The notes beneath the pieces are model-generated. The model was not told where the DNA came from and made no database searches. It saw nothing but the letters and a program-made list of their open reading frames with translations. Shown one piece after another: positions 6,248-10,993 of a stretch of 64,000 bases of DNA. Position 1 is the stretch's first letter, and each line of letters begins with the position of its first letter. Origin of the DNA: Acidobacteriota bacterium (lineage in GTDB: Bacteria > Acidobacteriota > UBA6911 > RPQK01 > JAJDTT01); NCBI GenBank assembly GCA_022827025.1, contig JAJDTT010000172.1:1-64000 (forward strand), in the 5' to 3' direction. A program made the position numbers and the translations under genes.

Positions 6248-8716
6248 TCAGCGGCAGTCGATGAGACCGCTGCCCGCCACCGGCCGGCAGACGTAGGCCT
6301 CGACCTCCAGGCCCTGGGCCTCATGCCAGGCGCGAGTCAGTTGTTTCAGCGTCCGCGCCACCGCCTCGTTTCGGACCAGGATCATGGCGCAGCCCCCCAG
6401 GCCCGCGCCCGAAAGTTGAGCCCCCACGACCCCCGGTTGGGCACAGGCGAGATCCACGATCCGATCGATCTCGGGCGTGGAGCAGGCATAGCTGCCCGGC
6501 TGCATCCAGAGGCGGGCGCGCTCTCTCCTGGCGGAGTCCGGGGAGAAGGAGTCCCGGATCAGGCGGTCCAACTGCCGGTCCCCGCAGGAGGCGGAATGAG
6601 GCCGCGATCGGCCCTGCTCATGCCGGACGATGCGGTCGCCGTCGTGGCTGACCCGCATCATTTCTCCGATCCGGGAGAACCGGCGGTCCTTCAGGAGCCG
6701 GGAGAACCGGTCGCTCCGCCGGCACTCGGCGACGCCGAAGAGAGCGACTCCCCTCAGGGGATATTCCCCCAAGTCGTCGTGAGTCGAGAAGATCTCCTCG
6801 ACTCGTTCGGTCTGCTCCGGCAACTGCTTCAGAAGGCTGCTGCGGCCGGTCTCCTGGGGCAGCTGTTTCAGCAGGCGGTAGATCTCGGCCTGAGAAAGGC
6901 CCAGCTTCCCGGGGTCCAGGTCCCTGAGGTGTTTCATGGCCCCCAGGAAGGACGCCTGCTTTCGCAGCAGCATCTCGGCCAGGTCGTAGCAGGCCACCCG
7001 GTGGTTGAAGGTGTGCCTGGCCCCGTGGCTCTTGGATACGGCGGCCTGGCTGTTGGCGATGATGACCGACAGCTCCCGGGGCAGGTCGACGGTCTCTTCG
7101 ATCCGGAAGGGAAAGAACCCGATCTTGCTGACCTTGTCCTTCTCCCCGCCGCGGATGGCGGCCTGGTCGGCGATGCCGCCCCGGGACCCGACGAACCATT
7201 CCCCCTCGCCGCACAGATCGACGAATTGCCGTGTGCTCAGGGCCAGTTGGTTGAGGGCCACCGACGCCTCCGCCATGGCCACCACCAGGGCCGAGCTGCT
7301 GGAGAGGCCGGCTCCCAGGGGGATGTCCCCCCAGACGACGCAGTCCATTCCCCGCAACCTGCGGCGGGGGTAGGCGTGCTGGAGTCGCAGCACGGCGGCC
7401 CGGGCGTAGTTGCTCCAATCTCCCCGTGAGACGCTGAGAAACTGGCTGACGGTGTAGGAGCTGATGAAGTCCATCCAGGCGAGCCAGTCGGTGTCCGGCA
7501 GCAGATCGCGGATGCGAAAGGTTCTTTCGGGAAATTCGTCCGATGAGAGGTGCCGAAGAGTGACGCTGTCGTCCTCCCGGGGAGCGGCCGCCAACAGGAT
7601 CTCCCGGTTGATGGCCATGGTATTCACGTAACCGCCCCGGTGGTCCACGTGCCGGCCCATGAGGTTGAGACGCCCCGGAGCCCGGGCCAGCACCACGGGG
7701 CGAGAGGCGCCGTGGAATTCGACGAAACGCTCCAGCAGGCGCCGGCAGGCACGAATGCGCGGCTCCAGGGGGACTCCGCCGGAGCCGTACACCTGCGAAA
7801 GAGACCGCCGCAGGGGCGGGGGCTTCCGGTTCAGGATCTCGAGCCACTCCCCGGCCGGTTTCAGACGGCTCGGGTCGATCCGGGGGAGAGGCTCCGCGGG
7901 GCCGTCTCCGAGCCGCTTGCGCCGGCCCAGCGCCTCCTCGATCCGGAGCAGTTCCTCCGGCGTGTTGAACCCCATGAGATCCTGTGGGTCGGCCACCTCC
8001 AGGACCGAGGTGGAGCCGCCGTTGGCGGAAACCTGCTCGACCGTGTCCGTCAGATAGAGCTCCTGCTGGGCGTTGTCGGCGGCGAGGGCCGCCAGTGAGG
8101 AGTGCAGGGATTCGGCTCTGAAGAGATAGAGGGAGGTGTTGAGCAATCGGCTCCCGGACTCGATTCCGGCGGCGGACATCTCCTTTCCCGCGACCGCGAT
8201 GGGGACTCCCGTCTCCGACGAGCGGCGGATGTCGGCCACTTCCACCACGGCCAGGGGCCGTGACTTCGGGTCCAGCAGGATCCGGCCGGCGCTGCTCTCC
8301 GGCTCCTTGGACAGTGCCGCGAGCGTCAGGTCCGCGGCTTCCGACCGGTGACGTTCCACCAGATCCCGCACCACCTGGGCCTCGATGACCTTGTCTCCCA
8401 TGGTGATCAGGATGTCGCCGCCGATGTGCCGCTCCCGCAGGACCCGGGCGGCGCACTCGGCCGCGTGCCCCGTCCCCAGCGCTTCGGGTTGGTATGCGAA
8501 GGAGACGTCGGGGTGGACCCGGGTCACCGTCTCCATGACGTCGACGGCCCGTTGGCCCACGACCAGGAGAAAATGCTCCAGTCCGGCGGATTTGAGGGTG
8601 TCGATGATGCGGACGATGGCGGGGACTCCGGCGATGGGGAAACAGACCTTGTGGTGCCGGGAGGAGCCCATGCGCCTACCGTGTCCGCCGCAGAGAATGA
8701 CGCAGGTGGTCTCCAT
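6248..8716 (-). CDS. Fused sugar-1-phosphate nucleotidyltransferase / GHMP sugar kinase
   Basis: 822 residues counted from the ATG at 8716, just before the nucleotidyltransferase motif; the frame stays open to 8893 but that part translates repeat DNA. Residues 1-250 form a GlmU/GalU-like nucleotidyltransferase (LCGGHGRRMGSSRHHK; GDILITMGDKV). From about 330 on there is a galactokinase-type GHMP kinase: GRLNLMGRHVDH near 350, the ATP loop PLGAGLSSSSAL near 465, and GAQLSGAGLGGC near 770. Domain order is like Bacteroides Fkp (pyrophosphorylase then fucokinase), but the first half is GlmU-like and the second galactokinase-like. With nagA next door, kinase and uridylyltransferase activity on a hexosamine such as GalNAc or GlcNAc is the best guess. 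Not biochemically certain. Confidence 0.85.
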   Translation of the reverse strand: METTCVILCGGHGRRMGSSRHHKVCFPIAGVPAIVRIIDTLKSAGLEHFLLVVGQRAVDVMETVTRVHPDVSFAYQPEALGTGHAAECAARVLRERHIGGDILITMGDKVIEAQVVRDLVERHRSEAADLTLAALSKEPESSAGRILLDPKSRPLAVVEVADIRRSSETGVPIAVAGKEMSAAGIESGSRLLNTSLYLFRAESLHSSLAALAADNAQQELYLTDTVEQVSANGGSTSVLEVADPQDLMGFNTPEELLRIEEALGRRKRLGDGPAEPLPRIDPSRLKPAGEWLEILNRKPPPLRRSLSQVYGSGGVPLEPRIRACRRLLERFVEFHGASRPVVLARAPGRLNLMGRHVDHRGGYVNTMAINREILLAAAPREDDSVTLRHLSSDEFPERTFRIRDLLPDTDWLAWMDFISSYTVSQFLSVSRGDWSNYARAAVLRLQHAYPRRRLRGMDCVVWGDIPLGAGLSSSSALVVAMAEASVALNQLALSTRQFVDLCGEGEWFVGSRGGIADQAAIRGGEKDKVSKIGFFPFRIEETVDLPRELSVIIANSQAAVSKSHGARHTFNHRVACYDLAEMLLRKQASFLGAMKHLRDLDPGKLGLSQAEIYRLLKQLPQETGRSSLLKQLPEQTERVEEIFSTHDDLGEYPLRGVALFGVAECRRSDRFSRLLKDRRFSRIGEMMRVSHDGDRIVRHEQGRSRPHSASCGDRQLDRLIRDSFSPDSARRERARLWMQPGSYACSTPEIDRIVDLACAQPGVVGAQLSGAGLGGCAMILVRNEAVARTLKQLTRAWHEAQGLEVEAYVCRPVAGSGLIDCR

Positions 8717-8762: not shown

Positions 8763-9338
8763 TTTCCACCCGGCGTAACGCAGGGGCCCCCAGCACCGGG
8801 GACAGTCCCGGGTAACGCAGGGGCCCCCAGCACTGGGGACAGTCCCGAAATTGCGCCCCTGAAGTAGGAGCCGTGTGTCCGGCGGGCACGCACGGATCTG
8901 CGCGCGCACGGATCTGCGCGGGGAGCGTTGGGGACAGTCCCGAAATTGGGCGGGGACCGCGCGCGCTACGCGCTGGGGACAGTCCCCAAATTGCGCGCCC
9001 CGTTTCCCTGGGGACAGTCCCGAAATTGGGAGCCGTGTGTCTGGCGGGCACGCACGGATCTGCGCGCGCACGGATCTGCGCGGGGGGCGTTGGGGACAGT
9101 CCCGAAATTGGGCAACCGGCGTCCCTACGAAATAGCACCCAGCACTGGGGACAGTCCCGAAATTGCACGCAGGACCCGGGCGGCGCACTCGGCCGCGTGC
9201 CCCGTCCCCAGTGCTTCGGGTTGGTATGCGAAGGAGACATCGGGGTGGACCCGGGTCACCGTCTCCATGACGTCGACCGAAATTGCTGGGGACAGTCCCG
9301 AAATTGCGCCCCGTTTCCACCCGGCATAACGTAGGGGC
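8763..9338. repeat. REP-like repeat cluster with GGGGACAGTCCC palindromes
   Basis: Non-coding region between the kinase fusion and the MFS gene. Eight copies of a palindromic core (GGGGACAGTCCC, most followed by GAAATTG) start near 8798, 8835, 8930, 8975, 9010, 9092, 9147 and 9288. Nested duplications are visible: a 37-base tandem (8775-8811 and 8812-8848), an 85-base direct repeat (8867-8951 and 9029-9113, two mismatches), and a 25-base direct repeat at both ends of the cluster (8763-8787 and 9314-9338, two mismatches). No transposase is present. Open frames here with repeated GDSPEI- or GTVPK-like peptides are artefacts of the repeat. Confidence 0.9.
9168..9277 (-). pseudogene. Copied 110-base fragment of the neighbouring nucleotidyltransferase/kinase gene
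   Basis: These 110 bases match 8436-8545, inside the nucleotidyltransferase domain, with only two differences, and in the same orientation. The parental bases encode part of the segment between VDVMETV and AARVLR. The fragment is bounded on both sides by the repeat's AAATTG sequence, so it sits exactly within a repeat junction. It has no start or stop of its own and is not expected to be translated. Confidence 0.9.
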
Positions 9339-9355
9339 ACCCCTTGTGGGTGCCC
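9335..9355. repeat. Dispersed inverted repeat GGGCACCC-CTTGT-GGGTGCCC
   Basis: A perfect 8-base stem with a 5-base CTTGT loop at the end of the repeat cluster. Near-identical hairpins occur at 38423-38443, 41291-41311 and 54979-54999 in either orientation, so it is a dispersed family and not only a local terminator. Confidence 0.8.
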
Positions 9356-9460
9356 TCCGTCGCTTGCCCGGTCGATTGACTCTCAGAGGGGTGTCGCTCA
9401 AACTCAGCGGAGATGGCGGGACCGGCTCCGGTTCCGGATCAGCAGAGGAGAGGTGGATTC

Positions 9461-10993
9461 ATGTCGAATGGAATCGGTGGGCGAAGGCTGTTTCTGGGAT
9501 GTTTCTTTGCGCTGGTGGCCACCGCGTTCGGATTCGTGGTGCGGGCCATGATCCTGGACGACTGGCGGGCCCAGTTCAATCTCAGCGGAGAGCAGATCGG
9601 GTACCTGGTGGGAGCCGGACTCTACCCCTTCGCCATCTCCATCATTCTCTTCAGTCTGGTAGTGGACCGGATCGGTTACGGAGTCTCCATGGTGCTCGCC
9701 TTCGCGGGCCACCTGGCGTCGGCCGTGATCACCATCTTCGCCGGAAACTTCTCGACTCTGTACCTGGGCACGTTCCTGTTCGCCCTCTCCAACGGGATCG
9801 TCGAAGCGGTGATCAATCCGGTGGTGGCCACCATCTACGACAAGCAGAAGACCCACTACCTGAGCGTGCTCCACGCCGGCTGGCCCGGAGGACTGGTCCT
9901 GGGCGGCCTGCTGGCCATGACCCTGGGAACGGGGGATGCCCTGGGCGGTGTGGGCAGTCTGTGGCAGTGGAAGGTGGGGCTGGTGGTGATTCCCACCGTC
10001 CTCTACGGGTTCCTGTTGCTGGGCCAGAAGTTTCCCGTCCAGGAGCGGGTGGCCGCCGGAGTCCCCTACCTGGACATGCTCCGGGAATTCGGCGCCGCGA
10101 GCTGCCTGATCGTCTGCTATCTGCTGGTGCAGGGACTGGACCAGATCCTGCTTGTCAACCAGACCGCGCTGGAGCCCTGGATGAAGGTGGTGCTGGTGGT
10201 GGCGCCGACGGCCGCTTTCCTGTACTTCGTCCGCTCGCTGGGACGGCCCATGTTCATCTTCCTGCTGCTGATCATGATGCCCCTGGCGACGACCGAGCTG
10301 GGCACCGACAGTTGGATCGCCGACCTGATGAGCTCCGTTCTGGCCAGTCCCAACGCCGGCGCGCTGGTCCTGATCTACACTTCGCTCATCATGTTCGTCC
10401 TTCGCTTCTTCGCGGGCCCCATCACCCACCGCATCTCCCCCTTGGGCCTGCTGGCCGTTTCGGCCCTCATCGCCGCCGCCGGCCTTTTCTGGTTGTCCTC
10501 CGCCGGTCAGGTCGCCTCCGTGGTATTCCTGGCCGCCACGCTCTACGGTGTGGGCAAGACCTTCTTCTGGCCGGCGACCCTGGGAGTCGTGAGCGAGTCC
10601 TTTCCCCGGGGCGGAGCCTTGACCCTGAACGCCATTGCCGGGGTCGGGATGCTGGCGGTGGGCGTCCTGGGCGGACCCCTCATCGGCACCTTTCAGGACC
10701 AGGCGTTCGATCGCATGATGAAACAGGAGGACCAGGCCCTGCATGCCCAGGTCATGACCGAGAAGCTGGGGCTTCTGGGGCGGTACAATGCCTTGGATCA
10801 GTCCGCACTGGGAAGTCTCGACCAGGAGAGCCGGGAACGCGTCGGCGAGGTGGTGGTGGTCTCCAAACAGGGAACGCTGGCCCGGATCGCCGTGCTTCCC
10901 CTGGTCATGCTGGCCTGCTATCTGGTCCTGATCGCCTGGTTCCGTTCGCGCGGAGGCTACAAGCCCGAAACCATCGGTTCGTCCGGAACCTGA
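9461..10993 (+). CDS. MFS transporter
   Basis: A 510-residue major facilitator superfamily permease with about twelve hydrophobic segments in the inner membrane. The start ATG at 9461 follows a purine-rich GAGGAGAGGTGG and gives a short cytoplasmic N-terminus before the first helix (LFLGCFFALVATAFGF). The segment DRIGYG between helices 2 and 3 matches the MFS loop region. A soluble loop of about 60 residues lies before the last helix. It is divergent from the nagA/kinase operon across the repeat cluster, so a sugar or amino-sugar substrate is possible, but no motif proves it. Confidence 0.8.
   Translation: MSNGIGGRRLFLGCFFALVATAFGFVVRAMILDDWRAQFNLSGEQIGYLVGAGLYPFAISIILFSLVVDRIGYGVSMVLAFAGHLASAVITIFAGNFSTLYLGTFLFALSNGIVEAVINPVVATIYDKQKTHYLSVLHAGWPGGLVLGGLLAMTLGTGDALGGVGSLWQWKVGLVVIPTVLYGFLLLGQKFPVQERVAAGVPYLDMLREFGAASCLIVCYLLVQGLDQILLVNQTALEPWMKVVLVVAPTAAFLYFVRSLGRPMFIFLLLIMMPLATTELGTDSWIADLMSSVLASPNAGALVLIYTSLIMFVLRFFAGPITHRISPLGLLAVSALIAAAGLFWLSSAGQVASVVFLAATLYGVGKTFFWPATLGVVSESFPRGGALTLNAIAGVGMLAVGVLGGPLIGTFQDQAFDRMMKQEDQALHAQVMTEKLGLLGRYNALDQSALGSLDQESRERVGEVVVVSKQGTLARIAVLPLVMLACYLVLIAWFRSRGGYKPETIGSSGT

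Follow-up and report, generated by a model that had tools for sequence, protein, structure and literature searches.

How a piece of coding sequence comes to lie inside an array of short repeats beside the gene it was copied from is the question raised by an intergenic region of the window, the whole 64,000-nucleotide stretch analyzed here (contig JAJDTT010000172.1 of an Acidobacteriota bacterium). The region separates two divergent genes. The parent gene (6251-8716, minus strand) encodes a nucleotidyltransferase fused to a GHMP (galactokinase-like) kinase, with the Pfam domains NTP_transf_3, GalKase_gal_bdg, GHMP_kinases_N and GHMP_kinases_C, and has orthologues of 88-92% identity in three genomes of the same genus. 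Its divergent neighbor is an MFS transporter gene (9461-10993, plus strand; Pfam MFS_1), and the captured fragment is placed between the two, upstream of the parent gene.

Identity of the Captured Fragment

The fragment (9168-9277, minus strand, in the orientation of the parent) and the donor stretch (8436-8545, minus strand, codons 58-94 of the parent gene) form direct repeats of 110 nt with two mismatches, C/T at offset 45 and G/A at offset 72. The copy reported in the initial annotation is therefore confirmed, with 108 of 110 positions identical, and the match between fragment and parent has a BLAST E value of 5e-50 among the loci compared. The donor is intact, in direct orientation and 623 bp from the fragment, which is open in the reading frame of the parent. 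The only other match to the fragment in the 5.3-Mb genome is the parent gene itself (40 of 290 candidates scored, the remainder being mostly a short dispersed repeat), and a search of plasmids with the fragment region returned no match. The AAATTG motif described on both sides of the fragment is present at 9160-9165 on the left, where it is followed by CA, and on the right as part of CGAAATTG immediately after 9277.

Fragment and parent differ at 2 of 110 positions compared with 5-6 of 110 between the parent and its counterparts in the sister genomes G002 and G003, a low divergence that is only suggestive of a recent capture. At the two mismatch sites, G002 and G003 have the A of the fragment at one and the C of the parent at the other, and any age read from these two sites would be ambiguous.

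The Repeat Array and Its Unit

The array is about 550 bp long and is enclosed by two copies of TTTCCACCCGGCRTAACGYAGGGGC placed 551 bases apart. The left copy (8763-8791, plus strand) belongs to repeat family D6 and is single in the sister genomes; the right copy (9314-9342, plus strand) continues into a dispersed GTAGGGGCACCCCTTGTGGGTGCCC repeat. Between them, at 8798-9306, are eight GGGGACAGTCCC cores, seven of which read GGGGACAGTCCC(G/C)AAATTG, all on the plus strand with irregular spacings of 35 to 141; none of 100 shuffles of the window reached such a count. The core occurs in 47 exact copies in the genome and in 9-19 copies in each sister genome, and many of the genomic copies are grouped in local arrays, about eight in number, each array having a tail and flanking letters of its own. 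The tail found here, CGAAATTG, is unique to the window locus. The full unit with its AAATTG tail has no other occurrence in the genome and none in 396 sampled genomes of the phylum, which makes its tail private to the locus. Viral contigs searched with the unit gave no match, and a literature search for the literal core sequence found no paper.

The core GGGACAGTCCC is palindromic. Matching outer arms are present on the units of contig C97, of G002 and of the RAYT genes, and the window units have no left arm. The window unit reads TGGGGACAGTCCCGAAATTG, with neither a GTAG nor a CGTC head next to the palindrome. A 12-nt inverted match between unit and fragment, AGCACTGGGGAC, lies inside the fragment and away from the junctions.

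The array also contains a 95-nt piece (8857-8951, plus strand) with a second copy at 9019-9113 (94% identity) and an internal GCACGGATCTGCGCG doublet. A source elsewhere in the genome was sought for this piece and for a 112-nt spacer on contig C108, and none was found for either. Bordering the array at 9329-9360 is a second dispersed palindromic repeat, GTAGGGGCACCCCTTGTGGGTGCCC, which resembles a classical GTAG REP family in its GTAG start and its approximately 290 first-look candidates in the genome. On contig C1 (L149), a 107-nt piece (35-141 and 261-367, 99% identity) is duplicated on the flanks of a small array with the same core and has the inverted ends GCGGTCGTCC and GGACGACCGC.

Association with RAYT Genes

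The sequence GGGGACAGTC is located 130-250 bases upstream of multi-copy genes of the REP-associated tyrosine transposase (RAYT) type in G000, G001 and G003. The best NCBIfam match of this core-linked gene family is REP_Tyr_transpos, at 54.5 bits and under the cut-off of 80. The exact core at the RAYT genes of this genus is found upstream only, in the direction of the gene. In Lachnospiraceae/Clostridia genomes, found by the unit pattern, palindromes of the CAATTTGGGGACAGTCCCCAAATTG type or close variants flank Y1 transposase (RAYT) genes on both sides. The core upstream of the RAYT genes of the genus and the related palindromes flanking RAYT genes elsewhere point to an array that is RAYT-linked and REP-like, and the initial label of REP-like is broadly right.

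Three textbook features of REPs and BIMEs are missing: the units have no GTAG/CGTC head and do not alternate in orientation, and the local RAYT genes have no inverted flanks. Assignment to the GTAG or CGTC REP superfamilies was rejected on the missing head, and assignment as a BIME on the single strand and the irregular spacing. A CRISPR array was likewise rejected, the spacing being irregular and the insert gene-derived. Two PF01797 matches found first, on contigs C110 and C22, have no core nearby and were set aside; the core-bearing RAYT family is distinct from them. RAYT genes are usually single-copy. The RAYT family here is multi-copy (L137-L148; G000, G001, G002 and G003); G001 has seven long copies, and the genome of the window has many partial ones, located at contig ends.

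The Site in Related Genomes

The array and the fragment are absent from the same gap in all three genomes of the genus compared, G001, G002 and G003. In G002 and G003 the gap has a single similar flank that runs directly into a dispersed GGGGCACCCCTTG repeat, and in G001 it is occupied by other sequence. The expansion is thus most simply derived in the lineage of the window, and the sister-genome comparison proposed in the initial annotation identifies the fragment as the derived copy.

Captures at Other Arrays

Inspection of other arrays with the same core in the genus shows that capture recurs, and the initial picture of an isolated oddity is not supported. The array on C97 contains two captures. 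One, of 79% identity, is copied from the last codons of a DUF6178 gene together with its downstream repeat, 1.7 kb away, and the other derives from the end of an SSF symporter gene next to the array. On C14, the array carries 142 nt copied, with 96% identity, from the start of the TIM-barrel gene beside it. In G003 (C24), the array duplicates the leader and some 230 codons of a gene for a ceramidase-like protein (98.4% identity over 948 nt), immediately upstream of the longer copy. All of these captures are in direct orientation with sources within 2 kb. When local coding-to-intergenic copies are counted automatically and uniformly, the array loci give 5 in 118 kb and the background 10 in 336 kb, with no clear excess, so enrichment at arrays over background is not supported by the count. 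In the background contigs, other repeat families also produce local duplications that add to the background count.

The C313 array (L100, 254-386) matches C82 over 133 nt at 98%, and this match was set aside as a possible assembly overlap because it stops exactly at the end of the C82 contig. On contig C119 (L164; 9559-9707 and 14400-14548), the last 149 bases of a gene have an intergenic copy of 86% identity 4.7 kb from that gene, with no array core nearby. Contigs C22 and C110 (L155, L163) are dense in other local repeat families of 50-230 nt, some of them inverted, which indicates a genome rich in intergenic duplications.

Mechanism of the Insertion

The junctions of the insert are defined at the base level. 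The 9-mer CGAAATTGC is present at 9158-9166 and again at 9278-9286, both on the plus strand, and brackets the insert with one extra A at 9167. With 9167-9286 removed, the period between two array units is exactly 21 nt, and the spacing of adjacent units in other arrays is 19-24 bases. A nearby intact donor, a direct copy and a short junction duplication (CGAAATTGC) are all features of template switching.

The array is probably best explained as RAYT-type and grown in situ, with the insert made in two template switches at a fork that had stalled or been nicked. The RAYT-type (REP-like) array would have grown in the divergent intergenic region after the split of the lineage from its relatives. 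During copying of the array, the nascent strand would have exited beyond CGAAATTGC, been extended by 110 nt on the adjacent gene, about 0.6 kb distant, and re-entered the array nine bases upstream of its exit, which would double CGAAATTGC and leave the fragment inserted. The trigger would probably have been a fork stalled by array hairpins or a unit nicked by RAYT, with neutral debris as the most likely outcome. Template switching at the repeat, suggested in the initial annotation, is the mechanism that best fits the 9-bp duplication, the local intact donor and the empty site in the three relatives. Counting against it, the junction microhomology is approximately 1 base, which leaves the switch points unexplained by homology, and array loci show no clear excess of local copies.

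Transposition of the RAYT or IS200/IS605-like type, in which a single-stranded piece with repeat ends is excised or copied into the array, with the 9-bp repeat arising as a target-site effect, could draw on the multi-copy RAYT genes of the genus with their upstream core and on the array sequence flanking the insert. Template switching fits better, because the source is local, the orientation is single and the intact donor lies in a gene with no array unit on either side. The sources of all the captures are local and direct, and IS200/IS605 elements are not known to make target duplications. Transposition is accordingly an unlikely origin of the insert. An ordinary tandem duplication of the block from 8436 to beyond the array, followed by loss of the stretch between fragment and array, has precedent in the tandem duplications of array and gene start on C14 and in G003, yet it requires two events with both deletion ends at the edges of the fragment and does not by itself account for the doubling of CGAAATTGC; this route seems quite unlikely.

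That the second copy was wrongly joined during metagenome assembly is very unlikely, even for a draft genome of 318 contigs and with an assembly gap within one sister array. Both copies lie within one 66-kb contig, they differ at two sites, and comparable captures of different ages are present at other loci. At 44 bases, the longest exact run common to the two copies is rather short to mislead an assembler, which makes a mis-join through the repeat unlikely. A selected function, with the fragment either having a regulatory role, such as RNA pairing with the mRNA of the parent, or providing homology for copy-number change of the gene start, has in its favor the position in a divergent promoter region, the 98% identity to the parent and the frame kept open. 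Against this, absence from the relatives means that nothing is conserved, and the captures in other arrays involve unrelated genes. The one Rfam match to the region was rejected (24.1 bits compared with a gathering score of 80), and the search for a function in Rfam and by conservation in the three sister genomes found none. Because fragment and parent are in the same orientation, transcription in the direction of the parent would yield sense and not antisense RNA, and the RNA pairing first envisaged is not borne out. A selected role is considered extremely unlikely.

Relation to Known Systems

REP clusters in which flanking DNA is reiterated are already known (PMC3733652). In a difference from those clusters, the piece found here comes from within the neighboring coding sequence, at a site that does not adjoin the array, and the window repeat does not have the GTAG or CGTC head that defines the families of that study. 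Segments between REPs in clusters are of variable length and have no mutual homology (PMC2817692). The array resembles the RAYT-associated REPs and BIMEs of that work in its short repeats, its intergenic clustering, its link to a REP-associated tyrosine transposase and its variable inter-repeat length, and differs in having unidirectional units, a private tail in each array, the exact core only upstream of RAYT genes and no inverted flanks. Gene-fragment-carrying transposons of the Pack-MULE type (PMC8277862) likewise hold fragments of host genes between repeats of a mobile-element family; unlike that type as outlined there, the present case has no terminal inverted repeats around a mobile unit, its sources are local and the captured piece is not seen elsewhere in the genome.

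The case extends the known reiteration of flanking DNA to a piece copied from inside a neighboring gene, with an empty site in relatives. It provides a base-level junction for the growth of a REP-like cluster and its pick-up of host DNA, with the empty site seen in three relatives and several separate cases within one genus. It is improbable that RAYT activity at the arrays actively drives capture of nearby gene pieces across the lineage, duplicating and truncating repeat-adjacent genes and leaving private locus-specific arrays. If RAYT nicking is the trigger, the locus would link RAYT transposases to local gene duplication and truncation.
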